Position numbers and translations under genes: made by a program. Below are positions 40,466 to 55,041 of a stretch of 64,000 nucleotides of DNA, in pieces. The notes below the pieces were generated by a model that was not told where the DNA came from, did not search any database, and saw only the letters and a program-made list of their open reading frames with translations. Origin of the DNA: Rhodohalobacter sp. 614A (GTDB lineage Bacteria > Bacteroidota > Rhodothermia > Balneolales > Balneolaceae); assembly GCF_021462415.1 (NCBI RefSeq), contig NZ_JAKEDS010000003.1, positions 62,001 through 126,000 of the forward strand. Reading direction: 5' to 3'. Positions within the stretch are counted from its first letter, which is position 1, and every line of letters starts with the position of its first letter.

Positions 40466-43400
40466 TCACTCTACCGTTTCAAATATAGCTGTTACCCTTT
40501 CCTGCTCTTCAGAGCTTAACACTGATTTTAACCCTACATAAAAATCCTTGAACACTGCATTTTGTTGCTCGGAATTAACCGAACCTGTCCAGTCCGTCAG
40601 CATTGTATAGAATTCTTCTTCACCGATTTGTTTAATAAGGTTGTACATGGCCAGTGCTCCCTTATTTTCTTCCAGATAATCAGTCCCATCAGCATCAACT
40701 AAAGCAGGTTCAAAATTGGGTTCACCACCTCGGTCTTTTTTGTAGCGATCTTCCTTACGCCGGATATAATCGCCCAATACCTGCTCGCCAAATGTTTCTT
40801 TTATAAATTGAAGAGCAACGGCCTCGGGCAGAGCCACACGCAGCATATCCGCCCCACGGACATCAGCAATTTTTATGTTTTGGAACACCCATTGCTTTGC
40901 AAGTTCTCGAACAATATTGTAGTAGATATCAGCCAGATCTTCCTGTTTACTGCCATCAGCTGTCCATCCCTGTTTTTCTGAAATTGTGATGATATTGGAA
41001 TAGGCATAAAAATCATCTTCCTCATAAAAAGGAACTTCCACAACCGTCAGTGTAGAATATGGGTATGAATCCAAATGATCTTCAATAAATGTAATTCCTT
41101 GTTGAACAGCGTCTTCAATCGATTCTACATTGTAAGTATGCCGAGGATCGTGCAATATCGTCAGATCAGTATTTGAAATATCTGCTTCATATTTTTGATA
41201 CGTTGCCGAGCCGATATACCATTGCATAGGCGATGGCTGATTCATCTCAAACCGATAGTAATTTCGCCCGTTCTCATTCCACTGCTCCTGAAGAATTCCG
41301 GGAGCAAATGCGGTTTGAGCAGATGATGTACTTACTTGAATCGTTGCTTTATGCCAATTGGCATCTGCCGAATAAACATCTTGCCGAAGAGATAACGAAT
41401 CTTCAATCGAAGCCATGCGGGACGACAACTCAGAAAGTTGATATTCTTTTCTCGTTCTATTTTCAGTCAGCTCTTTTTCTGAATTGTATCCAATCACCGG
41501 AAGGATATCTCTGCCCATCAGAGAACCGTTAAACGTTAAAGCAGACTGCGGATCACCTTGGCTGAAACCAACATAATGGAGGCTCAACTCCCCTTCTATT
41601 TCCATCTCTTCATTTGGTGCCAGAGAAGACGGAAGCAGATATGCGTACTGCTGATGACGTTCATCAGAAGAAATGTTTTGTAATGCTTCTCCTTGTGAAG
41701 AAAATGAATATATAGATACAAAATCTTTTAGGCTTATATGCAATGTATCAATCGAAGTTTGCGTCGGATTTAGAAGACGCATCGTAAAACGATAATTGGC
41801 CTTTCTCTCCTGTGGAAAAATATCAACCGATACATCCAGTCCGGTGATGGTTGGCTGCGGTGCCGATTCCAGATATTTATACCGCTTTTCATACTCAGCA
41901 GATTCCATCTCTTCCTGGTCCTCGATTTGAAAGTTGCCTGTTTCATTCACGTTCTCCACAATAAAACTCTGCAAAAACACAAAGCCAATCAGCAAAATGG
42001 GGATTGCTACTTTTCCAGAAATGGAAAGCTGGGGATTACGAATGTCCATTCGTTTCAGGAAACTTTTTTCGGCACCGCGGCTCCACCACCAGGCACCGGT
42101 CAGTAGCATCGCTGAAACCAACAAGCCCCACATCAAAGCATAATAGTTTGCTGCCACCCCAAAAATGCCGTATCCGTTCATTTCTGAATAATCGGCTGAA
42201 CCCGGCACAAATGGAAAATAGTACCGAATCTGTTCAATGAGTCCCAAATCTTCTGAAATAAGAAGAAACAGGAGAATAGCGACTCCCAAAATATGGGTCG
42301 CAAAACGACTGCCGGTAAGTCCCGCTAAAAAGAAAGCGAGTGCAATCATAAAAATGTAGGTCATCCAGCCCATTTTAAAGCCGTATATATCTTCTATATA
42401 AAGAAGCCAATCGATATCAAAAAAACCCTGAACAGCCTGAGCAAGAACGCCACACACAAACAAAGTTGTAGCCATTAAAAATGCGACGCCGGCCATCGCA
42501 AAAAATTTCGAAAAATAGGTCACCCAAGTCGGGACAGGTAATGAATCTGTGATCTGCCAGATACTTACCGTTTTCTCTTTAAAGAGTAATTCTCCCGCCC
42601 AAATTGTCAACAAAATTAAAATAAAAACACCATTTGGGAGCCGGGTAAATGTCATCAAAGATGTAATAGGAAGCGTATTGGAACTGATGTAATATTCTGC
42701 ATTCCAGATCAAATTGTAGAGGAAGAACATGAGAGCTGTAATTCCAATAATCAATTTAAACCCTGCCGGGCGAATCACGTTTTTTAATTCAAGCCATGCC
42801 AGACGAAATAGTTTTTTTATATTTTCTACTCCGCTGAAATTAATCTGAGGTATAGGGATCGTACTTATCCTGTGCTGAATCTTACCATCTTGATTTTGTA
42901 TCGACGTTTTGACGGACTTATCTTTTTTTACTTTTTCAGACGCTGCCGTTATAAAGCTTTTGAACCGGAATTTTCTGTATGAGAGATATCCAAGAAGGGC
43001 GCTTATTCCTATCCATAACAACCGGTTCGCAATCATAAGTGGAAGTAAGGGGAAATAGCTGTAATTCTTTGCAGAAAGTGACATGCTCTGAACCGTATCA
43101 CTCGTAATTGTATATCCCATAGGATCCAATAAATAGATCAGCGTTTTGTAGGTTGTATTTTCTCTTGTGCTTTCAGCAATCAAAAAGCAAACCATGATCA
43201 TAAAAACACCTACATAACCGGCCGTCATATTTCTGAAGAACACAACTCCCGCAATACAGATTGTGGTTAGCAGTAAAATATTGGGAATGGTGAATATCAA
43301 AAATCCATGAACTAACGGTCCCCAGGGTGTAGGCCCAAACTGTTCGGCCGGCGCCACACCAAGATAAGGCAAAAGAATCATCCCAAGCGGATAGCCCATA

Positions 43401-43744
43401 CATATCACAACATTGATAAGAAAAGCAGCGTTGAATTTTGCCAGAAAATATTTTTTCTCATGGATAGGAAGGGTATAAATAATTCCAGCGGATTTGTATT
43501 CAATATCTTTGAAGAGTGCCGTTCCGGTGATAATTGCAATAACGATACATAATAACATCCCTGTACCTGACAGGTTCTGATAAAAGATGCCCGAAGCATT
43601 CATCAACGTGGCGTCATTGATGTAAAAATTGTAGGTACCAATGGTGTACCAGACGCCCTGAAAAACCAACATCAATAGAAAAATATAGGTGATAGGTTTC
43701 GAAAATCTGTACGTAAATTCAAAGGGAAGGATCGTTCTGATCAT
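40466..43744 (-). CDS. ABC-2 permease fused to inactive M1 peptidase-like domain
   Basis: A 1092-residue protein in two halves. Residues ~1-610 are two ABC-2-type permease modules with about twelve membrane helices (first YIFLLMLVFQGVWYTIG; IVIAIITGTALFKDIEYKSAG). Residues ~650-1092 follow the M1 aminopeptidase layout (DVSVDIFPQERKANYRFTMR; LTVVEVPFYEEDDFYAYSNI). The zinc motif HExxH is replaced by R946-E-L-A-K950, so both histidine ligands are lost and the domain is probably a binding or scaffold module. The start overlaps the ATPase gene by 4 bp. Together they form an ABC transporter inside a siderophore operon. Confidence 0.85.
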   Translation of the reverse strand: MIRTILPFEFTYRFSKPITYIFLLMLVFQGVWYTIGTYNFYINDATLMNASGIFYQNLSGTGMLLCIVIAIITGTALFKDIEYKSAGIIYTLPIHEKKYFLAKFNAAFLINVVICMGYPLGMILLPYLGVAPAEQFGPTPWGPLVHGFLIFTIPNILLLTTICIAGVVFFRNMTAGYVGVFMIMVCFLIAESTRENTTYKTLIYLLDPMGYTITSDTVQSMSLSAKNYSYFPLLPLMIANRLLWIGISALLGYLSYRKFRFKSFITAASEKVKKDKSVKTSIQNQDGKIQHRISTIPIPQINFSGVENIKKLFRLAWLELKNVIRPAGFKLIIGITALMFFLYNLIWNAEYYISSNTLPITSLMTFTRLPNGVFILILLTIWAGELLFKEKTVSIWQITDSLPVPTWVTYFSKFFAMAGVAFLMATTLFVCGVLAQAVQGFFDIDWLLYIEDIYGFKMGWMTYIFMIALAFFLAGLTGSRFATHILGVAILLFLLISEDLGLIEQIRYYFPFVPGSADYSEMNGYGIFGVAANYYALMWGLLVSAMLLTGAWWWSRGAEKSFLKRMDIRNPQLSISGKVAIPILLIGFVFLQSFIVENVNETGNFQIEDQEEMESAEYEKRYKYLESAPQPTITGLDVSVDIFPQERKANYRFTMRLLNPTQTSIDTLHISLKDFVSIYSFSSQGEALQNISSDERHQQYAYLLPSSLAPNEEMEIEGELSLHYVGFSQGDPQSALTFNGSLMGRDILPVIGYNSEKELTENRTRKEYQLSELSSRMASIEDSLSLRQDVYSADANWHKATIQVSTSSAQTAFAPGILQEQWNENGRNYYRFEMNQPSPMQWYIGSATYQKYEADISNTDLTILHDPRHTYNVESIEDAVQQGITFIEDHLDSYPYSTLTVVEVPFYEEDDFYAYSNIITISEKQGWTADGSKQEDLADIYYNIVRELAKQWVFQNIKIADVRGADMLRVALPEAVALQFIKETFGEQVLGDYIRRKEDRYKKDRGGEPNFEPALVDADGTDYLEENKGALAMYNLIKQIGEEEFYTMLTDWTGSVNSEQQNAVFKDFYVGLKSVLSSEEQERVTAIFETVE

Positions 43745-44628
43745 GATAATACAGGCTGATTTTGAGTGAACAGAATATTGAAATAAGCATCTTCCAGTGA
43801 AGGTGTTTTCTGCCGGAAACCATTGCCTGGTTCCTCATCAGAAATTACCGTGATGATTAATCTTCCAAGATGAAAGTGAGAGGAAATAACAGCATATTCT
43901 TGTTCGTGGATTTCCAGATTTTCTTTTTTGATCTGTTTCTCCCAAAGTTTTCCACGGAGTGAATTCTGAATCTCTTCAGGCTGACCGGTAAGTAAAACTT
44001 CTCCTTTCCCGATGATAGCCATGTAATTACAAAGAGTTGAAACATCTTCAACAATATGAGTTGAAAGAATAACCACAGTGTTCTCTCCAATTTCTGAAAG
44101 AAGATTGTAAAAACGGTTTCTTTCCAGCGGATCCAAACCGGCAGTAGGTTCGTCTACAATAATCAGTTTGGGATCACCCAGCAGAGCCTGAGCAATTCCA
44201 AACCGCTGTTTCATACCACCAGAATATCCTTTGAGTTTTTTCTTTCGAACATCCCAGAGATTTACTTTTTCGAGAAGAGAATCTACCATGTCCCTGCGTT
44301 CTCCTTTTGCCACAATCCCTTTCATATCCGCAATATGAGTCAGTAATTCTTCAGCGGTAACACTGGGATAAACCCCAAATTCCTGCGGAAGGTATCCCAG
44401 CATTTTTCGAAGCTCTCCCGGTTGATTAAAAACATCAATATCACCAAATGATATATGCCCAGTATCTGCTTCCTGCAGAGTTGCAATGGTACGCATCAGT
44501 GTGGATTTGCCTGCCCCATTCTGTCCCAAAAGGCCAAACATACCTTTCCCAATTGTAAGAGATACATTCTTTAATGCCTGTACCCCATTGGGATAGGTTT
44601 TAGAAAGGTTACTTATAGTAAGTTGCAT
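43741..44628 (-). CDS. ABC transporter ATP-binding protein
   Basis: A 295-residue ATPase: Walker A GLLGQNGAGKST, signature YSGGMKQR, Walker B LIIVDEPTAGLDP, and the H-loop STHIVEDV. The C-terminal extension (QIKKENLEIHEQEYAVISSH) is common in ABC-2 type ATPases paired with large permeases. It is translationally coupled to the permease-M1 fusion (4-bp overlap). Export or membrane remodelling is more likely than import; the cargo is unknown, but the operon is devoted to siderophore iron. Confidence 0.92.
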   Translation of the reverse strand: MQLTISNLSKTYPNGVQALKNVSLTIGKGMFGLLGQNGAGKSTLMRTIATLQEADTGHISFGDIDVFNQPGELRKMLGYLPQEFGVYPSVTAEELLTHIADMKGIVAKGERRDMVDSLLEKVNLWDVRKKKLKGYSGGMKQRFGIAQALLGDPKLIIVDEPTAGLDPLERNRFYNLLSEIGENTVVILSTHIVEDVSTLCNYMAIIGKGEVLLTGQPEEIQNSLRGKLWEKQIKKENLEIHEQEYAVISSHFHLGRLIITVISDEEPGNGFRQKTPSLEDAYFNILFTQNQPVLS

Positions 44629-44700: not shown

Positions 44701-45117
44701 TTATAACACTGTTTTGGCCGGCCTCAAAAAAGTAGCCTGAAGAAGCCGAAAATGGTGAAGAATAATCACCAAATTCAGGCTTAACAAGGTGCTGTCAAAA
44801 ACCATGTATCCTACATTTTTTGAAAAGAATACATGTGTCATTACCAGGCACAACATGAGCGGAAACAGCATCACCGCCCCCAGCAGATATGTTTTTTTAA
44901 AGACCAGGAGTCCCCCGCAAAGAAGTTGGCAAACCCCAACAAAACTGAGATATCCCGTTTTCTGAAGTAAATCATAGAATTCAAAAAAAGCTTCACCAGA
45001 GTGGGGCATATTGGCTTGAAACACCTCCGAATGATAGGGTAAAAATAATTTTTCTATCCCCGAGTAGATAAATAACAATGCCAACAGAAATCGAATGATA
45101 TAGATAACCACCTTCAT
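44701..45117 (-). CDS. DoxX/MauE-like four-helix membrane protein
   Basis: A 138-residue protein with four membrane helices; FLLALLFIYSGIEKLFLP is the DoxX/MauE start motif (F-x-x-SGxxK). The remaining helices (VGVCQLLCGGLLVF; LLGAVMLFPLMLCLVMTHVF; LSLNLVIILHH) fit the family. Members act in quinone- or thiol-linked redox at the membrane. Its position between the TonB receptor and the ABC genes makes a redox or assembly role in iron uptake possible, but unproven. Confidence 0.75.
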   Translation of the reverse strand: MKVVIYIIRFLLALLFIYSGIEKLFLPYHSEVFQANMPHSGEAFFEFYDLLQKTGYLSFVGVCQLLCGGLLVFKKTYLLGAVMLFPLMLCLVMTHVFFSKNVGYMVFDSTLLSLNLVIILHHFRLLQATFLRPAKTVL

Positions 45118-45132
45118 ATATCTGACTGGTAT

Positions 45133-47529
45133 TTAAAATTCTGCTGTTAATGTAGCGCCGAATGTAGCAGGAAGGCCGTAGTTTCCTAAACCTCCATATC
45201 CTGATATAGCATAGGCGTAACTGAAGTACACTTCATCCGTCAGATTTTTACCCCAAAGTGAGAGTTTATAATTTTCCAACTGTGCAGAAATTTGTCCATT
45301 TAAAATGCCGTAGCCATCTTGTGAATAATTGTTTTCTGCACTAAAATACATTTCTGTCTGGAATTGATAATCCAGGGATGCATTGAAATGCACATCATTC
45401 AAATTTTTATTAAAAATGAGTCCCAGTCCCCCATTCCAGTGTGGTGAGTAGCCTTGTTCATTTCCGCTGTAATCCACCGTCTCTCCCAGGCTGTTTATGA
45501 CCGTATACTCCGTCACATCTGTATCCAGATAACCGAGATTCACAAGAGCATTCAATGACTTCGACAGAATCCACTCAGATTCCATTTCCAATCCATAACT
45601 GATACTGGTTCCTATATTTTCCCGACCATAATTAAAAGTGGTCATATCAATAATGGTAAAAAGCTGCTGATCCTGATAATCGATGTAGAAACCCGTCAGA
45701 TTCAATTTTAACCTGTTGCTTAAAAGAGTTGATTTCAATCCCGCTTCATAATTCCAACTTACTTCTTCATCAAATACGGCTTTATCTTCATCCGAGGTCC
45801 ACGTATTAATCCCGCCAGGTCTGTAGCCTTTTGCTACATTTCCATAGATCAACAGCTGATCATTTGCTTCATACGATAATCCAAACTTTGGCGAGAGCGC
45901 ATCATAAGAAGCTGATTTCTCAAACTCCCCGGGCATAACACCTAATGGCGGATAGGTATAGGGGGCTCCGTCTTTTCGATAATAATTTTGAACCTCACTC
46001 TCCTGTTTGGATATCTCATACCGAAGACCGGCGATGAGGCTTAACTTCTCCGTAAGATTGTAATCCACGTTACCGAAAAATGAAACGCCGTTGTCGGTCG
46101 TCAGGTTGTCTTCAATACTGTTGTATGGAAACTGGGCCTGGGTTTCGGGATCTTCATAATACATGGCATTATCGGGTCCCGACGTATATACCTGGTAGAG
46201 ATCTTCATTAAAATGATAGACAAAAACCCCGGCAAGCCAATCGAACGCAGGATTGCTTTGAGAGGGACGCAGCCGAAGTTCTTCAGAAAGCGTGTACTTT
46301 TTAGAATCTACATCTGCGTAGGAGATATTTAAAGGAGTGAAGTCATATTCCTCCTCTTCATCCGTATCCTTGGTTCGCTGGAACGATGTGATAGATGTTA
46401 ATGAAACCTTGTTTCCGTAATATCCAACTTTCAACGAATTATTCGATAACAGAACCTTATGATTCCCGACGTGGCTATAATTTACTTCATACGGGTGATT
46501 TGTTTTTATTGAATCCAGTTGTGCATTGGTGGCACCCGGCGTCCCGGCTAATGCAAATCCTTTCATATCCCGAAACTCCAAACCCGATGAAAGTGTAACA
46601 TTCCACTTATTGGAAGGAAGCCAGGAAAGTTTCATATTCCCGTTTATTCTCTCATGAGATAAAAGATCCTCACTATCTGGAATGGCCGCATTCTCAACAT
46701 AGCCGTCTCTCGTGGTGAATCCACCGCCAATTAATGCAAAGAGTTTATCATCAACTAACGGAAGGTGTGTACCGGCATTTACATTAAACTGATTCAAACT
46801 TCCATATCCTGCCTTTATATATCCTCCGGCAGTATTCGTCGGTTTTTTAGTTACAATATTGATCACGCCGGCCAATGTATTTCTGCCGTATAGTGTTCCC
46901 TGCGGACCTCTTAATACTTCAATTCGTTCAATATTCGTCAAAGCTGCCGGAAACGAATAGGTGCTAAATAGCGGGACATCATCCACATACACACCCACTG
47001 TCGGTTTTTCATCGATTGTAAAAATCCCTCTGCTGGCCACCATCGAAAAAATCCCGACGCCATCGTCATACGTCATAAAGTTGGGAGAAATTCTGCCGAT
47101 TTCATTCAGATTTGATATTTGAAGATCTTCAGCTCGCTGCTCACCGATGGAAGCAACTGCGATCGGTACTTTCTGTAATTCTTCTTCCCTTTTTTGAGCC
47201 GTAACAACCAGTTCCTGTAACTCCAGCACATTTTCGCTGAGACGAAAGTTTACTTTCCGGGAATCCGCGTCGATATCAATCTCTTTTGTTTGAGCTGCAA
47301 AGCCAATAAAACTTGCCCGAATTTTTTGGTTGCCCGCAGGAACATGCAACAATTCATAGCTCCCCTGGCTATTTGTGACGGCTCCAATCGTCGAATTTAA
47401 TACCTGAATACTAACGCCGGGAAGTGGTTTACCTGAAGAATCTGTCACCTCTCCGGTAATCGATGTTTGAGCAAAACCAACAGATGTAGATATAATTAAA
47501 AAAGTAAATATTAATAGATGTTTGAACAT
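45133..47529 (-). CDS. TonB-dependent siderophore-type receptor
   Basis: A 798-residue receptor. Signal peptide ends SVGFAQ; residues ~24-100 are a carboxypeptidase-regulatory beta-sandwich (SITGEVTDSSGKPLPGVSIQ). The plug follows: LQELVVTAQKREEELQKVP, RGIFTIDEKPTVGVYVDDVP and IERIEVLRGPQGTLYGRNTL, with AGVINIVTKKPT. The barrel ends LTAEF. The KREE(E)LQKVPIAV type is typical of iron complex receptors. The start codon is 13 bp from the 17-bp palindrome at 47542-47558, and an AraC gene is divergent. It opens the siderophore operon. Confidence 0.92.
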   Translation of the reverse strand: MFKHLLIFTFLIISTSVGFAQTSITGEVTDSSGKPLPGVSIQVLNSTIGAVTNSQGSYELLHVPAGNQKIRASFIGFAAQTKEIDIDADSRKVNFRLSENVLELQELVVTAQKREEELQKVPIAVASIGEQRAEDLQISNLNEIGRISPNFMTYDDGVGIFSMVASRGIFTIDEKPTVGVYVDDVPLFSTYSFPAALTNIERIEVLRGPQGTLYGRNTLAGVINIVTKKPTNTAGGYIKAGYGSLNQFNVNAGTHLPLVDDKLFALIGGGFTTRDGYVENAAIPDSEDLLSHERINGNMKLSWLPSNKWNVTLSSGLEFRDMKGFALAGTPGATNAQLDSIKTNHPYEVNYSHVGNHKVLLSNNSLKVGYYGNKVSLTSITSFQRTKDTDEEEEYDFTPLNISYADVDSKKYTLSEELRLRPSQSNPAFDWLAGVFVYHFNEDLYQVYTSGPDNAMYYEDPETQAQFPYNSIEDNLTTDNGVSFFGNVDYNLTEKLSLIAGLRYEISKQESEVQNYYRKDGAPYTYPPLGVMPGEFEKSASYDALSPKFGLSYEANDQLLIYGNVAKGYRPGGINTWTSDEDKAVFDEEVSWNYEAGLKSTLLSNRLKLNLTGFYIDYQDQQLFTIIDMTTFNYGRENIGTSISYGLEMESEWILSKSLNALVNLGYLDTDVTEYTVINSLGETVDYSGNEQGYSPHWNGGLGLIFNKNLNDVHFNASLDYQFQTEMYFSAENNYSQDGYGILNGQISAQLENYKLSLWGKNLTDEVYFSYAYAISGYGGLGNYGLPATFGATLTAEF

Positions 47530-47541
47530 TTTAGCTATTTG

Positions 47542-47558
47542 TTTAGATTTAGTCTAAA
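47542..47558. promoter_or_regulatory. Iron-type operator palindrome, copy 1
   Basis: TTTAGATTTAGTCTAAA is a perfect TTTAGA-N5-TCTAAA dyad and contains ATTTAG-T-CTAAAT. It sits 13 bp from the TonB receptor start and 77 bp from the divergent AraC gene, so one repressor bound here could control both. A copy differing by one base is at 54910-54926. Confidence 0.7.
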
Positions 47559-47634
47559 TAAGAGCCAAATATACAGCACTCTTTTCTTTTGAGTGTTACG
47601 CCAAACGGAATAAAACCTACGCTACAAGTAGAAA

Positions 47635-48624
47635 ATGAAACTGCACATACATGGACAAGATCTCTCAGAAATACTCATCAAAAACCGATATCCCCGCTCC
47701 TTTCAGGATGACCAGTCAGATATTGTAGAACAGACCTATGGAGATGACTTTTTCTTTGGAACCGGAACTGTTCATGAAATTTATTTTGAGGGTATACACA
47801 TTGCTTATGGCGACCTTCACCTCATCCATAAAACTTGCCTCCGATTTGAAAGTGAGATCAAAACCGTAGAAATGCATTTTGCTTTGTCGGGCCAGAGTTT
47901 AAGCCGTTCACCAAATTTTAAAGAAGAGATTATTTTTGGTTCTAATCAGCATAACATTGTATATGTAGACGGCTTTAACGGCATTATAGAATGGTCTGGC
48001 CTGAACAATAACATGGCGTTTTTAGAAATCAACCTGTTACCGCATATTTTTGAAAAATATCTTCCTGAAGGAACTGAAATTTTTGAGTCTTTCAAGAAAA
48101 ATATCGACCGGAATAACACATCCAGTTTGGGCTCCCAAAATTTTCCGATCTCCCCACAAATGTTGATGATCATCCGGGAAATCACATCATGCAAAAGAGA
48201 GGGGATTTTTAAAAAGATATTCCTGAAAGCCAAAGTTATTGAATTACTTTTACTTCAACTGGAACAGATCAATGAACGCCATTCCCAAACGCCGTATTCA
48301 ATTAAAAAAACGGACATCAACAAGATGCATGCCGTTAAAGAGATTCTTCTAAATAACCTTGATCAGTCATACACGTTGGATGATCTTGCACTTAAAGCAG
48401 GCACCAATGCCTTCACCCTGAAAAAGGGTTTTAAAGAGATCTTTGGTACTACAGTTTTTGATTTCTGGCATGACATTAAAATGCAGCAAGCCAGGAAAAT
48501 GCTTTTGGAAGAAGGACTGGCTGTGTATGAAGTTTCTGAACAGGTGGGCTATAAATATCCGCAGCATTTTACAACAGCGTTTAAAAAGAAGTTTGGAGTA
48601 GTGCCAAGTGATTTAAAAACTTGA
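47635..48624 (+). CDS. AraC-family regulator (PchR-like)
   Basis: A 329-residue regulator divergent from the TonB receptor. The N-terminal ~200 residues match the PchR-like sensor (EIYFEGIHIAYGDLHL; VEMHFALSGQSLSR). The C-terminal HTH pair is clear: YTLDDLALKAGTNAFTLKKG, with FKEIFGTTVFDFWHDIKM, and VYEVSEQVGYKYPQHFTTAF, then KKKFGVVPSDL. In pyochelin and alcaligin systems, members of this group bind the ferric siderophore and switch on its receptor; the same is likely here. Confidence 0.92.
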   Translation: MKLHIHGQDLSEILIKNRYPRSFQDDQSDIVEQTYGDDFFFGTGTVHEIYFEGIHIAYGDLHLIHKTCLRFESEIKTVEMHFALSGQSLSRSPNFKEEIIFGSNQHNIVYVDGFNGIIEWSGLNNNMAFLEINLLPHIFEKYLPEGTEIFESFKKNIDRNNTSSLGSQNFPISPQMLMIIREITSCKREGIFKKIFLKAKVIELLLLQLEQINERHSQTPYSIKKTDINKMHAVKEILLNNLDQSYTLDDLALKAGTNAFTLKKGFKEIFGTTVFDFWHDIKMQQARKMLLEEGLAVYEVSEQVGYKYPQHFTTAFKKKFGVVPSDLKT

Positions 48625-48655
48625 TAACTATCTGCTTTAATACCAGATACAGGGG

Positions 48656-48733
48656 TTAGTTGGGTTTTTCTCCAAAAGCATATTCGTTTTGACGATATTT
48701 GTCATCCCATTTCTTAAGCCAGGCATCTGCCAT
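48656..48733 (-). pseudogene. 5' remnant of a SAM-dependent methyltransferase gene
   Basis: A 25-codon minus-strand frame reads MADAWLKKWDDKYRQNEYAF then GEKPN and stops. WDxRYxxxEYAxGxxPN is the N-terminal signature of a well-known class I methyltransferase group (TehB/thiopurine-type relatives), which continues with DFL and the SAM-binding fold; nothing of that fold remains. It sits between two convergent iron genes. Confidence 0.5.
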
Positions 48734-48792
48734 ACTTTTTTTGTTTATGATTTTTTAGAAGAATTGTTTTTTAGCAAAACTTTTAAAAGAAA

Positions 48793-48847
48793 GAGCCCTG
48801 AATCCACTTGAATTCAATCATTCCTGTGGATGGGCTCTCCTCAAATT
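48793..48847 (-). terminator. Terminator of the Xus-like operon
   Basis: GAGCCC (48793-48798) and ATCCAC (48802-48807) pair with GTGGAT (48836-48841) and GGGCTC (48842-48847), leaving a 3-nt bulge. On the minus strand the hairpin is followed by TTTCTTTT. It lies 8 bp beyond the DUF4374 stop codon. Confidence 0.75.
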
Positions 48848-48855
48848 TTCTGTAA

Positions 48856-50127
48856 TTAATGACTATACGAAAGATCATATAATCCAATCAATTCGCCACC
48901 GGTAACATCAAATGCTTTTTGAGATTGGCCTGTGGATGGATCATATTCGTAATAGGCATTTTCGGACGGTGTAACAACCGGAATGTAGAGTTTCCCATTT
49001 ATTTCCGTAATTATATTTACTGAAAAAGGAGAAACATTCGGAAAGTCAGGGAGCGGCGTTACGGTTTGTGCCTGTAAATCAAGCTCACTCCATCGTCCAT
49101 TTTGAGCATTGTATAAAATATCAAACGCCTGTACAATTTGCTCATCCGAGAGATTGGACGGATCGCCACCGACTGAAGCAACAAGTTCCAAAAGCTCCTG
49201 TGGTATATCTGTGGCAACGGCCGCATATGCTTTGTTATTTTGATGGTAATAGAGGCCATTGGTAACGGAAAGCAACTGATTTGAAGGATTTGCTGTAAAT
49301 GCCGGAGGAAAATCGTAACTGTCATCAAATTCGTTGGAACCTGCCGGGATTCTCAAAACTGTAGAAATTGGATTGGTTCCGGTAGGATTTCCGGTATCAG
49401 CTACATAAATATTTCCCTGCTCGTCAATATTGTTTTGGCCAAATCCAAATACAGGAATGGATTGTCCACTGGCCATTGAAGTGGTTCCTACGTAGGTCCC
49501 CGTTGATACATCCGCAATATGCACGATGGTAGAATCAAAAGAGCCACCTGCATTGGGCCGTACAGGAGCAAATACCAAATCGTCTCTGAACGCGAACGAT
49601 TCGTACCTTGATGGAGCCGGAGTTGTGGCTGCACTCATATCAATGGTTCCTTTTATACTAAGATCAGACGGATCAAAAACCGTAATTTCATCAGGATTAT
49701 TTCGGTCATGATATACACCTGTGTTTTCGTCCTTAATTTTAATTGCAAAAGAAGAACCGTCTACCGTAGGCAGTACACCTTCTTCAATAATCTCTCCTTC
49801 ACTGTTAACCACGATTTTCGCAAAACCGCCTGATTCATCAGGACGAACCATAAAAAATGCTCCGCCTATAGCATCAACCGGATAAAAGTATTGGAAATCG
49901 GTTCCGGTACTAAGGTCTACTGTGCCGGTTGGCATTTCTTCTTCATATTTCACCAAATATGTATTTGAAGGAGTCATTCCGGTTATAAGGAAACCAGTCT
50001 TTTTATTTTCAGACTCGTCTTCTCCACCGGTGCTGTTATCACTGCATGAAGACAAAACCACTGTCAGTGTAACTAACAGGATTATAAACATACTTGCTTT
50101 TGTGCTGTATCTATGTAAGAGGTTCAT
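48856..50127 (-). CDS. xusB: DUF4374 lipoprotein (XusB-like)
   Basis: A 423-residue lipoprotein with lipobox LSSC (C28) followed by Ser/Asp/Glu-rich sequence as for surface export. The rest is a beta-propeller-like DUF4374 protein: AIGGAFFMVRPDESGGFAKI, DLSIKGTIDMSAATTP, FAFRDDLVFAPVRPNAGG, VFGFGQNNIDEQGNIYVAD. In Bacteroides thetaiotaomicron XusB, a surface lipoprotein of the xenosiderophore system XusABC, has this domain and neighbours a TonB receptor and a PepSY protein, as here. It probably captures the ferric siderophore. Last gene of its operon. Confidence 0.8.
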   Translation of the reverse strand: MNLLHRYSTKASMFIILLVTLTVVLSSCSDNSTGGEDESENKKTGFLITGMTPSNTYLVKYEEEMPTGTVDLSTGTDFQYFYPVDAIGGAFFMVRPDESGGFAKIVVNSEGEIIEEGVLPTVDGSSFAIKIKDENTGVYHDRNNPDEITVFDPSDLSIKGTIDMSAATTPAPSRYESFAFRDDLVFAPVRPNAGGSFDSTIVHIADVSTGTYVGTTSMASGQSIPVFGFGQNNIDEQGNIYVADTGNPTGTNPISTVLRIPAGSNEFDDSYDFPPAFTANPSNQLLSVTNGLYYHQNNKAYAAVATDIPQELLELVASVGGDPSNLSDEQIVQAFDILYNAQNGRWSELDLQAQTVTPLPDFPNVSPFSVNIITEINGKLYIPVVTPSENAYYEYDPSTGQSQKAFDVTGGELIGLYDLSYSH

Positions 50128-50145
50128 AGTATTTGTTTATTGATT

Positions 50146-52584
50146 TTAATTTATAGAATAGTTGATTTTTAAAGAGGCGTTTAAACCGGGTTTAGGAACA
50201 CGATAATTATCATAAACCGTGTTATCGAAGACATTATTTGCCTGGAAAGAAAAAGACAGAGATTGCCGGGGAGCGTACGTGATTCCGAAATTATGCTGAT
50301 GTTGGGTCGGCACAAGATTCTCACGATTGGCATTCGATTTATCCGGCACATATGTGATGCTGAATTGATCAACGAAATAGTAATTCCAAAACAATTCAAG
50401 AAAACCCTGATTTCTGAACAGCTCTGTAAACCGATACGCCCATGATGTATTAAAAAAGAAATCAGGGATATTCGGTACCTGAACACCGACGAAACTTTCC
50501 TCCTGGACGGTGTTTGCGGACGTCAGCTCTATTTTTTGATAGGTTACATTTGCTTGTACCGACAGGTTTTGAACCGGATTTGATTTCACAGCCAGTTCGA
50601 GTCCACGTGCCGAAACCTCATCTTCATTCATATACTGAGACTCTTCCCCAAATCCTCGTGGCCGTAAACGAACCAGGTTTTCCTGACGCCGCAAAAAGCC
50701 ATTAACATCAACCGAATAAAAACGTCCGCCCGAGTACTCTTTTTGATAGAACAAACCTATGTTCAGGTTTTGACTTCGTTCTGGTAAAATGGTGTAATTG
50801 GGAACAATGCTTAGAAAATCCCCATAAATTTCAGTTTCATCCGGCATGCGAATGGTTCGTTCAAAACTGCTCCGTACAAATAAATTCGAATGAATGTCCA
50901 TCTTTACCGCCATCCCATACCCGTGATCGAGAGAATTGTTTTCTCTAATTGGGATAATGGTGGATGAAACCTGATTGATGTCTATTGACCGGGCGTTGTA
51001 ATAGTAATTTTTATAAAAAACTGTTGTGGTCAATCGATCATTTTTCAACCATAGTGATTGGAGTTCGGCACCCGAAATATTCCGTTTATAATGAGATGGA
51101 ATGGTATTTGGATCTAACATTTCTCCAGCGAGATTCAGCCGATTTCCCACAGGGTCTTTTCCTTCAATCCGCGAATACCCAAAGAAATTACTTAGTGCAA
51201 CAGAATGGCGGGGATGAAGGTCGATTTGAAAGGTAAGCCTGTGTGCGGTTCCTGTTTGATCTCCGTCCCGAAGGGATGGCCTTGATAGGATTTCGGCACC
51301 GCGGTTATTTGTAATTGGCATGATATCGCCATTCCAGTCATACAGGTTAGAGGTCGAATCATCTACCATGCTTTTTGTAAGTGACACCATTCCGAAATAC
51401 TCAACCTGAATTTGTGAACCAAAGGCTTTCCGATAGCGTATTCTTTCTATGAAAGATTGCACATCCTTATGTGCCTCGCCTGCAGGCCGTTTCGTTACTC
51501 GCTGCCCATGCTGAAATTCATCATACCGTGTTGAATATGCCGTACTGAGTGTTAATTCATCTGCCCATGATTGATTGGAAACCGAAAAACCTCCTTCAAA
51601 ATATGCTGATGTATGCTGGCTGTTAAACCGTTTTACATCCGTCCGATTTTCCACAACAGTGGTATCCATTCGCCCGAAATCATTCTCAAAAATCCTGATC
51701 GTCTGATTTGGGATATTCTCCATACCATATGTATTGTCTGAGTGATTAAGAAACATATTTCCAGAAAGAGATATGTTCTCACCCACTTCTTTCCGTCCGG
51801 CTATTGTGGCCCGGTGTGTGTTAAAAGAACCATATTCGTAAGAAGCCTGTAAAAAATTATATCCAAATGTTTTCGGGATAATGTTGATTCCGCCTCCGAG
51901 TGCGTCCGTTCCTACCGTAATAGGCATCACTCCTTTGTACACCTCCACCCTTTCGATACTATTCACCGGCAAATTATTCAGTTGAATTCCCTCCCCGTAT
52001 AAATCAATAGGAATTCCGTCATAATAGACTCTCACGGCGTTTCCGGTCAGTCCATTTAGGTTAATGGATGACCGGCTTCCCAAACCACCCTCTTGCCGCA
52101 CCAACACTCCCGTGGCCCTTTTCAAAATATCTTCCGCTCCGATGGCTTGCGTATTCAGCGAGGCAGCGTCAATCGCGGTGATGGTTATCGGTTCCCTGGA
52201 TCGTCGCGTGGCATCCGATTCTGCCGAAACGGTGATATCTCCTAACGCTGAGATCTCTTCAATCAGCGTAAAATTGACAACCGTTTCTTCATTCCTCCTC
52301 ACCGTTACACTTTTCTTTTGGGTTTGATATCCCACGGATGAGGCTACAATCGTATAATCACCGGTTTCCAAACCTGTGATTGAATATTCTCCGTTTTGAT
52401 CGGTGATATTTCCCTTTCTTGTGCCTTCAATTCCAACATTTACATTCTCAAGCGGAGTACCGGTTTCATCCGTTATTTTTCCCTGAACCGTTTGTACAGA
52501 TTGAGCCTGAACAGTGACTGGCCGTATCACCAACAGAATAAAAACAAGTAAGACCAGTTGATTTTTCTCTTTCAAAATTTTCAT
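50146..52584 (-). CDS. xusA: TonB-dependent receptor (XusA-like)
   Basis: I choose ATG 52584 (MKILKEKNQLVLLVFILLV), which gives a normal signal peptide ending TVQAQS and avoids overlap with the PepSY gene. It makes 812 residues: carboxypeptidase-regulatory domain (VQGKITDETGTPLENVNVGI), plug (GDITVSAESDATRRSREPI; ILKRATGVLVRQEGGLGSRS; VRVYYDGIPIDLYGEG; IERVEVYKGVMPITVGTDAL), and barrel to LKINYSIN. It imports ferric siderophore with TonB energy. Its neighbours, a DUF4374 lipoprotein (18-bp gap) and PepSY reductase, define a Xus-type set. Confidence 0.88.
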   Translation of the reverse strand: MKILKEKNQLVLLVFILLVIRPVTVQAQSVQTVQGKITDETGTPLENVNVGIEGTRKGNITDQNGEYSITGLETGDYTIVASSVGYQTQKKSVTVRRNEETVVNFTLIEEISALGDITVSAESDATRRSREPITITAIDAASLNTQAIGAEDILKRATGVLVRQEGGLGSRSSINLNGLTGNAVRVYYDGIPIDLYGEGIQLNNLPVNSIERVEVYKGVMPITVGTDALGGGINIIPKTFGYNFLQASYEYGSFNTHRATIAGRKEVGENISLSGNMFLNHSDNTYGMENIPNQTIRIFENDFGRMDTTVVENRTDVKRFNSQHTSAYFEGGFSVSNQSWADELTLSTAYSTRYDEFQHGQRVTKRPAGEAHKDVQSFIERIRYRKAFGSQIQVEYFGMVSLTKSMVDDSTSNLYDWNGDIMPITNNRGAEILSRPSLRDGDQTGTAHRLTFQIDLHPRHSVALSNFFGYSRIEGKDPVGNRLNLAGEMLDPNTIPSHYKRNISGAELQSLWLKNDRLTTTVFYKNYYYNARSIDINQVSSTIIPIRENNSLDHGYGMAVKMDIHSNLFVRSSFERTIRMPDETEIYGDFLSIVPNYTILPERSQNLNIGLFYQKEYSGGRFYSVDVNGFLRRQENLVRLRPRGFGEESQYMNEDEVSARGLELAVKSNPVQNLSVQANVTYQKIELTSANTVQEESFVGVQVPNIPDFFFNTSWAYRFTELFRNQGFLELFWNYYFVDQFSITYVPDKSNANRENLVPTQHQHNFGITYAPRQSLSFSFQANNVFDNTVYDNYRVPKPGLNASLKINYSIN

Positions 52585-52618
52585 TCTTGAAATCCTGTTG
52601 TCTCTATGAAAAGAGTGT

Positions 52619-54211
52619 TTATCTGACAAGTGCAGGTTCGGGTTCTGTTTGATTCTGAGTTTTAATTTCACGGGCTCCCCAAATCGCAGCGATACCCGAA
52701 ATCAGCCAGAGAAGGTCAATTCCGGCCACAGCCGGCACTTCTCTCCAGCTGTTCCATATCCAATCGCTGGTTATAACTCCATTCAGGATGGGAATCAAAA
52801 AAGAGAGTGCTCCGCCAAGCAAAAAATAATTCCGGGTCATTTCAGAATATTGATCCCAGAACCAGCCGACGGTTGATAAAACCAGCCACGATACAAAGAA
52901 AATCATCTCAACCATTATCCCTCTTCCGTCAACATCCAAAGGAATGACTTTGTTAGCGATAAACAGGATGGCAATAGCAGGAAACAAGCTGAGGCAAACC
53001 GTTAAGTTTAATTTTGTAATCCGGTGGTGAAACCTCTTCTCCTTTTCTGTGTAGCTATTCTTGTCACGCGCTACCTGCCAGATAAGAATTCCACTGATAA
53101 TCATGAAACATGTAAGCAACGCTAACAGAAAATAGATGATCCTTAATAATACTCCACCAAAGGACCCAAAATGCAATTTGATGAATATCGAATACACGGC
53201 TTCGCCATAGCTTTTCTTATAAGGCAGATGACTGGACGCTTTTAAAAAGTCACCATTCATCAATTGAAAAGACATGTTTCCGCTACCCATCAGGCCCTGA
53301 TGATCATCAACTTCAAAAGAGGCAACTGCGTCTTCTCTGCCGTAATTAACCAAAGTAATTCGTAGCAAATCGTGTTCCGGATAATTGTTTGCTACTGTTG
53401 ATTTTAACTCGTTGAGTGAAACCATTTCTGCGTGCGGTGCATCTTCATCTGCTTCAATTCCATAACTTGGCTGAATAACAGAATAAACGGGAGTCGCGCT
53501 GCCGCCAAACATCACCATTACACTCGGTAAAAGAAGTAAAATCGACAAGCAGAACAGAGCACCTGTAATGGCATACATTACCTGGAAAGGTAAACTTATC
53601 ACGCCCACAACGGTGTGAGCATCCGTCCATATCTGCTTCCAGCGTTTTCCTACAAAAAAGGCATAAAACTTCTGAAAGATATTCCGCCAGTGAATTAATA
53701 TTCCGGTTACGGTAGCGAGCAAAAAGAATAAAGCAACAAATCCGGAAATGTACATGCCCAATGTTGGAATTTGTGCAAGATAATGGAGCTCGTATAGCGT
53801 TTGGCTAACGGTTGTCTGGCTGCTTACGGAACCTTGATCTTCAACTTCAACGTGGTATGATTCCGGATCAATATGGCCCTGAATGTGATCATGTGTACCA
53901 TCCGTATTTTTAACAGAGGCGTAAAATTCAACTTCTGAGTGGCCAACTTTTGACGGATAAATATAAACGGGATCGTGCATATCCAATTCATACGATTGGG
54001 TAATACTTTGAATCACCCGGTCATAGTCCACATTTTTAGCAGTTGCTGTTCTGGCCTCCGGGTTTTCCCAGAGGTAGATTTCATCCATAAACAGCGAATA
54101 GGCCCCTGCATAAAAAATGATAAACAGAACAAGGCTAATCATCATACCTGTTACGGTATGTGCGTGGTGCATGATATTATAAGCCCTGTTTCCTAACCCT
54201 TTTAATCTCAT
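52619..54211 (-). CDS. xusC: PepSY-TM inner-membrane reductase (XusC/FpvG-like)
   Basis: A 530-residue membrane protein of the PepSY_TM family. The first helix follows IMHHAHTVTGMMISLVLFII; later membrane segments carry histidines suited to heme or metal relay: LHYLAQIP, GILIHWRN, WTDAHTVVGV, KLHFGSFGG, RFHHRITKLN. The soluble parts hold PepSY repeats. FpvG of Pseudomonas, of the same family, reduces ferric pyoverdine in the periplasm; XusC is its Bacteroides counterpart. It starts 1 bp after the preceding small gene and should be made with it. Confidence 0.87.
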   Translation of the reverse strand: MRLKGLGNRAYNIMHHAHTVTGMMISLVLFIIFYAGAYSLFMDEIYLWENPEARTATAKNVDYDRVIQSITQSYELDMHDPVYIYPSKVGHSEVEFYASVKNTDGTHDHIQGHIDPESYHVEVEDQGSVSSQTTVSQTLYELHYLAQIPTLGMYISGFVALFFLLATVTGILIHWRNIFQKFYAFFVGKRWKQIWTDAHTVVGVISLPFQVMYAITGALFCLSILLLLPSVMVMFGGSATPVYSVIQPSYGIEADEDAPHAEMVSLNELKSTVANNYPEHDLLRITLVNYGREDAVASFEVDDHQGLMGSGNMSFQLMNGDFLKASSHLPYKKSYGEAVYSIFIKLHFGSFGGVLLRIIYFLLALLTCFMIISGILIWQVARDKNSYTEKEKRFHHRITKLNLTVCLSLFPAIAILFIANKVIPLDVDGRGIMVEMIFFVSWLVLSTVGWFWDQYSEMTRNYFLLGGALSFLIPILNGVITSDWIWNSWREVPAVAGIDLLWLISGIAAIWGAREIKTQNQTEPEPALVR

Positions 54212-54212
54212 A

Positions 54213-54494
54213 TCACCTCAACCCATAAATAATTCCCGAACAAATGATGATGATCAGGAGATATAGCCCCCAGACTTTCCACGCTTTTTCAAAAAGAAGT
54301 GCGACAATAATTGTTGTAATCCACAAAGAAAAGGCACTGTATGTTGTGGTTTGAATCCAAACGGCTCCAGTGCCTAAAACGGCCCCGAATACCAGGTGAA
54401 TCACTACCGTAACAAAATACCCGCCAATAATTCCGGCCAGGGTTTTAGAAATACGCTGAAGTCGGGTTGACAAATATCTTTCGTTAGCCGGCAT
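54213..54494 (-). CDS. DUF3649-like small membrane protein
   Basis: A 93-residue protein with three hydrophobic helices. LQRISKTLAGIIGGYFVTVV is like the start of DUF3649 (R-x-x-A-x-x-GGY), followed by YSAFSLWITTIIVALLFEKA, with WKVWGLYL, in place of the family's W-x-F-A-x-R-S-x-x-x-A-W segment. In Proteobacteria DUF3649 genes travel with PepSY reductases and siderophore receptors. It overlaps the upstream gene by 11 bp. The precise role is unknown; it may stabilise the reductase. Confidence 0.6.
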   Translation of the reverse strand: MPANERYLSTRLQRISKTLAGIIGGYFVTVVIHLVFGAVLGTGAVWIQTTTYSAFSLWITTIIVALLFEKAWKVWGLYLLIIIICSGIIYGLR

Positions 54495-54801
54495 AAACGA
54501 CCAGATCCAAGACTGCGGTTGCCGTTAATAAAATCACCCAGACAATCCAGCTTTTGGGATAAAGAGTCAGGGAAAAAATGAGAAGAGGCAAAATGGTCAT
54601 CCATGAAACCAAACTTACAGTAATCGCCGTAGCCAGTTTCATATCCTGAACAAGAAATGCAACGCCAATCACCCAAAGCCCCAAACCTGCCAGACGACCT
54701 ATATTCTTGTTTACCGATATTTTTTCTTGCAGCGAGAGCGGAAAATATTTTGAGGTACTATAGAACAGCAATGCTGAACTCGTGATAAATAATAAAGCCA
54801 T
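54484..54801 (-). CDS. DUF3325-like small membrane protein
   Basis: A 105-residue protein with three membrane helices: LLFITSSALLFYSTSKYF, RLAGLGLWVIGVAFLVQD, and ITVSLVSWMTILPLLIFSL, with LYPKSW. Layout and the R-x-x-G-x-x-L and late YP-x pattern fit DUF3325, again a companion of PepSY siderophore reductases. It is the first gene of the five-gene iron operon, with the operator palindrome 109 bp upstream. Family assignment is by pattern rather than by search. Confidence 0.55.
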   Translation of the reverse strand: MALLFITSSALLFYSTSKYFPLSLQEKISVNKNIGRLAGLGLWVIGVAFLVQDMKLATAITVSLVSWMTILPLLIFSLTLYPKSWIVWVILLTATAVLDLVVYAG

Positions 54802-54909
54802 TCTTTACTTACCGTTTATCGCGCTTTTGAATCGAGAGAACTTATTAGCCAATTCTGAGTGTTTCAGGGCGGTAAAAATATCAGGAAGGATAAAACTCGT
54901 CAATTTTTA

Positions 54910-54926
54910 TTTAGAATAAATCTAAA
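54910..54926. promoter_or_regulatory. Iron-type operator palindrome, copy 2
   Basis: TTTAGAATAAATCTAAA matches the reverse complement of copy 1 (TTTAGACTAAATCTAAA) at 16 of 17 positions. It precedes the Xus-like operon by 109 bp. Shape resembles DtxR/IdeR-type sites (TTAG...CTAA) more than a Fur box. The rest of 54802-55041 is AT-rich and non-coding. Confidence 0.7.
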
Positions 54927-55041
54927 CAATCAATAAAAGCACGCAACTATTGTATCATAATTAAAATAAAATCAATCATTTAAAAAATATGACATTTCCA
55001 ACGATCATGATGAGTTGATCTGGAAAAGGAAGAATGATTTT

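Follow-up and report, generated by a model that had tools for sequence, protein, structure and literature searches.

A stretch of 64,000 nucleotides from Rhodohalobacter sp. 614A (the window, C3:62001-126000 of a 4.69 Mb assembly) carries two near-identical palindromes, each ahead of an operon with a TonB-dependent receptor, and raises the question of which regulator reads them. The initial annotation had taken them for operators of a common metal-dependent repressor, of DtxR/IdeR type rather than Fur, and for a Balneolota iron box. A shared iron-responsive repressor is indeed supported by sites before iron genes throughout this genome and its relatives, and by an orthologous promoter in which the site is kept. 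On the strength of the regulator inventory and of box-bearing genomes that lack DtxR, combined with published binding, both palindromes are very probably Fur boxes, serving as operators of the genome's canonical Fur.

Both 17-bp palindromes (Table 1) are present as first described, with a one-base difference between them, and the earlier remark that the window holds no third copy was borne out: TTTAGAn5TCTAAA has exactly these two matches in the window and none in 100 dinucleotide shuffles, and matches with two mismatches number 6, about what chance predicts (5.2). With its flanks the unit spans 19 bp as a 9-1-9 inverted repeat, ATTTAGAnTnAnTCTAAAT, and both window sites end in C. The same word has seven exact sites in the genome, against none for the reversed word and a uniform-base expectation of 0.7-1.1 (GC content assumed to be 40-44%). 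The initial annotation had proposed such a scan and had named random placement as the outcome that would tell against it; instead, six of the seven sites head iron-uptake operons, the kinds of target comprising TonB receptors, HmuY, Xus-like (DUF4374/PepSY) modules and a FecCD ABC importer. The one-mismatch class was not enriched in a 12-base genome scan (25 sites, against 52 in the control), and we therefore rely on exact sites and accept a near match only where both its core and its context fit.

A comparison of orthologous promoters, likewise suggested at the outset, was possible for box 2. Orthologs of the window PepSY protein occur only in G052 (68%) and G048 (63%). Upstream of the same gene set in G048, box 2 is identical at 17 of 17 positions amid flanks that have diverged (16/60 and 25/60), and G052 has a degenerate copy, with 3 mismatches, at the equivalent place. 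Box 1 cannot be footprinted in this way because the 798-aa receptor behind it has no ortholog in the 57 other family genomes at an E-value of 1e-60. That the two sites are AT-rich palindromes of chance origin might be argued from the one-mismatch class, which is no commoner than the reversed control, but is barely conceivable in view of exact sites far above controls and an orthologous box retained between diverged flanks, and chance was rejected on these two grounds.

The position of the boxes is also informative. Measured from the box start across the FCB group (Fibrobacteres, Chlorobi, Bacteroidetes), occurrences of TAnnTTTG, the -7 promoter element of Bacteroidota, peak in two intervals, -15 to -12 and +22 to +28 (157 site-gene pairs, contributed by several gene families and lineages; related loci share ancestry, and the counts are not independent). 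Box 1 belongs to the first positional class and thus overlaps the promoter, whereas box 2 has no TAnnTTTG nearby. A repressor would be expected to sit in such places, over the +1 or within the promoter spacer, and the bound protein would presumably be one. We propose that, under iron-replete conditions, Fur dimers carrying Fe2+ would bind the 19-bp palindrome; at box 1, just downstream of the -7 element and over the expected transcription start, they would block RNA polymerase, and both the TonB receptor operon and the Xus-like operon would be kept off. When iron is scarce, Fur would shed its metal, and the two operons would be derepressed along with at least four other boxed iron-uptake loci.

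The binder is suggested by the Fur box of Riemerella anatipestifer, ATTTAGAATTATTCTAAAT, which was established by RegPredict and electrophoretic mobility shift assay (EMSA) (PMC5609570). The site ATTTAGAATTATCCTAAAT before rhuB of this bacterium is backed by EMSA and by derepression in a fur mutant (PMC10986502), and deletion of the Fur box is reported to derepress rhuH (PMC11967795). The window boxes have identical arms, ATTTAGA/TCTAAA(T/C), and a different centre. This match was hidden because the abstract of PMC5609570, as well as PMC7976709, quotes an E. coli-type word instead.

The genome encodes a single canonical Fur (170 aa, contig C1 near 2,135,600), which scores 102 bits to PF01475 and can be aligned to Fur proteins of known structure (E 3e-24). 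Fur is present in 54 of the 58 family genomes, the SRATVYNTL segment of its recognition helix is unchanged throughout an alignment of 23 FCB Fur proteins, and among 20 sampled box-bearing FCB genomes a Fur-family match was found in 19 and a DtxR match in 15. The DtxR-family protein of this genome (IdeR/MntR-like and ending in a FeoA domain) might, in its Fe2+- or Mn2+-loaded form, bind the palindrome in place of Fur: DtxR-type sites have the same TTTAG...CTAAA look, the family is represented in 54 of the 58 genomes, and in the relatives G019, G009, G020, G044 and G054 exact boxes lie 3.5-4.2 kb from dtxR, although the adjacent gene is a neighbourhood gene and not dtxR. Nevertheless, we consider this unlikely. 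The protein, the only one of its family (Fe_dep_repr_C) in the genome, is itself MntR-like (233 bits to the MntR model, 105 to DtxR), the D and E at its metal-ligand positions align with the Mn regulators ScaR and SloR, no iron-type DtxR/IdeR protein was found in the genome, and the dtxR promoter has no box. In P. gingivalis, the DtxR-family MntR bound the promoter of its own feoB2 operon and not the iron promoter feoB1 (PMC4805248), and the R. anatipestifer studies credit the word to Fur. Boxes of a DtxR/IdeR regulon would be expected to go when DtxR goes, yet box and iron-gene context persist in Fur-bearing genomes that lack it, before feoAB (G070), sufB (G073), sodB (G076) and a ferric substrate-binding protein (SBP) gene (G016), as well as before nrfHA; names of the sufB, sodB and nrfHA kind were partly read from translations by eye. 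Hidden Markov model matches named 'dtx' proved to be FeoA proteins, not DtxR. The preference for a DtxR/IdeR-type site over a Fur site is accordingly not supported, the 19-bp unit being that of the published R. anatipestifer Fur box.

Several points weigh against the assignment to Fur. Most genomes carry both Fur and a DtxR-family protein, so that co-occurrence discriminates weakly. In the promoter of the main Fur gene itself no box turned up, even with up to 4 mismatches allowed (L175), and autoregulation is thus unusable as support. G023, which is 93% complete, has three boxes, one of them before sufB, and no FUR match, probably through assembly loss. The core favoured here is GAYTnARTC as against GAATnATTC in R. 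anatipestifer, though both cores, and others, are found at promoters of one ferric-SBP gene family. The seventh exact site of the genome (C1:41145) adjoins no uptake gene. Finally, Fur as the binder in this organism is argued from sequence and by analogy.

Another iron-linked regulator, such as a Rrf2/IscR-like protein or a second Fur-family protein, could account for one genomic site lying before a Rrf2 gene and for Fe-S and respiratory genes (suf, IscA-like, nqrA, nuoA, nrfHA, sodB) among the FCB-wide targets, and the genome does encode two more Fur-family proteins. Such a binder is very improbable, as it is Fur whose binding has been published, the promoters of a single ferric-SBP family include both the core preferred here and that of R. 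anatipestifer, and the two extra Fur-family genes adjoin P-type metal ATPases and score far from Fur models, pointing to zinc or another metal. These two divergent regulators (L176:4761-5192 on C1 and L177:4831-5244 on C6), near heavy-metal P-type ATPase genes, are likely to control efflux of zinc or another metal. As for the AraC-type regulator encoded divergently beside box 1, its gene begins close to the palindrome, but that box 1 is its operator is next to inconceivable: the other exact sites have no AraC gene beside them, and AraC proteins usually bind direct repeats. The genome scan speaks against it, and it was rejected.

The Fur box extends well beyond this genome. The open-core 19-mer ATTTAGAn5TCTAAAT has 79 sites in the family genomes, against 2 for reversed-word controls, and 48 of the 58 genomes have sites. 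A species-specific box, as the narrow core YTnAR (3 of 58 family genomes only) might have indicated, was rejected since the open-core scan revealed conserved arms and a variable core. Genes right behind 30 of the family sites encode ferric-type SBPs (10/38), TonB plugs, CbiX, ferrochelatase, HemS/ChuX and others. A scan of GTDB for exact ATTTAGATTnAATCTAAAT, with one genome per species and figures that hold among the matches listed, yielded mostly Bacteroidota and relatives, spread over Bacteroidota, Ignavibacteria and Rhodothermales. The 'Balneolota iron box' thus stands as an iron box and falls as a Balneolota speciality. The genes behind these sites (n=104) include IscA-like 13, FeoA 8, SufBD 6, NuoA 4, NqrA 3, hemA 2 and others; feoAB and ferric SBP genes are likewise FCB targets. 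Control genes more than 1.5 kb off in the same loci lack this pattern save for a few suf genes, probably of the same operons. In DtxR-less Bacteroidota (L267, L268, L261, L264) the box precedes sufBCD, nrfHA, sodB and a cytochrome c gene, which are iron-using rather than uptake genes. Outside the group, two clostridial loci (L087:6687-6705, L105:4666-4684) have exact ATTTAGATTnAATCTAAAT 13-26 bp before a Fur-family gene; this hints, but no more, at a Fur-family protein that recognises the same word and regulates its own gene.

We tentatively raise the possibility, which we rate at somewhat below an even chance, that one Fur box is common to the Bacteroidota/Ignavibacteria/Rhodothermota/Balneolota superphylum, with Fur directly controlling iron-using genes (suf, IscA-like, nqrA, nuoA, hemA, nrfHA, sodB) in addition to uptake genes, by way of sites that overlap the promoter, either within its -33/-7 spacer or over the +1. 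If true, this direct control would be the DNA-level counterpart of the role of the small RNA RyhB in enterobacteria. A superphylum-wide word with measured specificity would allow iron regulons to be predicted in environmental and gut genomes by the thousand, and it marks Fe-S and respiratory genes as candidate direct targets. Systems of this kind are familiar, and both box and binder had been described in one bacterium; as far as the literature searched shows, what is new is the extension to this genome and across the FCB group, together with the orthologous footprint and the geometry of the promoters.

Of the siderophore receptor/ABC operon and divergent AraC gene that had been read after box 1, the TonB receptor and the AraC gene hold, but the ABC genes encode an ABC-2-type ATPase and permease (PF12730) and no siderophore importer. 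The best subfamily match of the receptor is a siderophore receptor, with a score below that model's cut-off. The permease has a long C-terminal part that is M1-peptidase-like by eye. The operon headed by box 2, which had been called Xus-like, comprises the 105-aa open reading frame (ORF), PepSY, TonB and DUF4374-like genes; TonB and PepSY_TM are clear, and DUF4374 falls just under the cut-off here and is clear in two other modules of the genome.

Table 1. Boxes, promoter element, genes of the window and further sites in the genome
Feature	Position	Strand	Remarks
Fur-type box 1 (putative)	47541..47559	-	19-bp unit ATTTAGACTAAATCTAAAC; 17-bp core TTTAGACTAAATCTAAA, read on the minus strand at 47542-47558; from genome scan and match to R. 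anatipestifer Fur box
-7 element match TATATTTG (TAnnTTTG)	47566..47573	-	offset -14 from 19-mer, commonest across FCB boxes
TonB-dependent receptor	45133..47529	-	predicted target of box 1; ATG 12 bp after box 1
DoxX/MauE-like membrane protein	44701..45117	-	downstream of the receptor
ABC ATPase	43741..44628	-	downstream of the receptor; ABC-2-type, not FecCD-kind importer
ABC2_membrane_4 permease	40466..43744	-	1092 aa
AraC-family regulator	47635..48624	+	divergent from receptor; ATG 76 bp from box 1; possible second target
Fur-type box 2 (putative)	54909..54927	-	plus strand ATTTAGAATAAATCTAAAC; gene direction TTTAGATTTATTCTAAA; 17-mer TTTAGAATAAATCTAAA at 54910-54926
105-aa membrane ORF	54484..54801	-	first gene after box 2, 108 bp from it; counterpart kept in G048, G052
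PepSY_TM protein	52619..54211	-	Xus-like operon
TonB-dependent receptor	50146..52671	-	Xus-like operon
Lipoprotein, weak DUF4374 (XusB-type) match	48856..50127	-	24.1 bits, cut-off 25
Exact site	C1:171997		before TonB receptor + HmuY operon
Exact site	C1:1480616		before TonB + DUF4374 + PepSY operon
Exact site	C2:190155		before beta-propeller + Peripla_BP_2 + FecCD + ATPase importer
Exact site	C2:201127		before TonB receptor operon divergent from esterase
Exact site, core TCGCA	C1:41145-41161 (L016:5146)		between purL and Rrf2 gene/copper-type ATPase/cbb3-like oxidase cluster
Near match, right core	C1:1996962		third DUF4374/PepSY module, divergent from imelysin
Near match, right core	C1:1084262		before CbiX-like gene

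Elsewhere in the genome the 17-mer TTTAGATTCATTTTAAA is present twice, at C1:1961555-1961571 (L025:4556) before a DUF6686-like gene and at C1:2098501-2098517 (L026:4502) between a cytochrome c7/alternative-complex-III-like operon and a DUF420 gene; it is possibly a half-degenerate box or the site of another regulator. A protein of 203-204 aa with a partial match to IS1595 transposases (L017:5124-5735, L179:5865-6479) is kept in two species, divergent from the HmuY/TonB operon and with a box in between, and is perhaps a domesticated transposase fragment.

Among known systems, the operon behind box 2 resembles the Bacteroides siderophore-utilisation operon xusABC in combining a TonB receptor, a DUF4374-like lipoprotein and a PepSY_TM protein, but differs in its extra small membrane ORF in front, its weak DUF4374 match and the two further modules elsewhere in the genome. 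With the DtxR/IdeR box TTAGGTTAGSCTAACCTAA and MntR sites the palindromes share their symmetry, TTAG/CTAA arms and a metal-dependent repressor, whereas the DtxR/IdeR box has TTAGG/CCTAA arms and other spacing. The closest likeness is to R. anatipestifer, a member of the Bacteroidota whose box is likewise a 19-bp 9-1-9 palindrome with outer arms ATTTAGA/TCTAAAT, also near start codons and with similar kinds of target (TonB receptors, HmuY/hmu-like, imelysin); there the core ATnAT is used in place of the YTnAR preferred here, and Fur binding, which we predict for this genome, has been demonstrated. The classical E. coli-type Fur box GATAATGATAATCATTATC has the same 19-bp 9-1-9 architecture and location before iron-uptake genes, but its half-site is TGATAAT as against TTAGAnT here, and because of these letters Fur went unrecognised in the initial annotation; being so unlike the textbook word, the FCB Fur box is readily missed or credited to another family.

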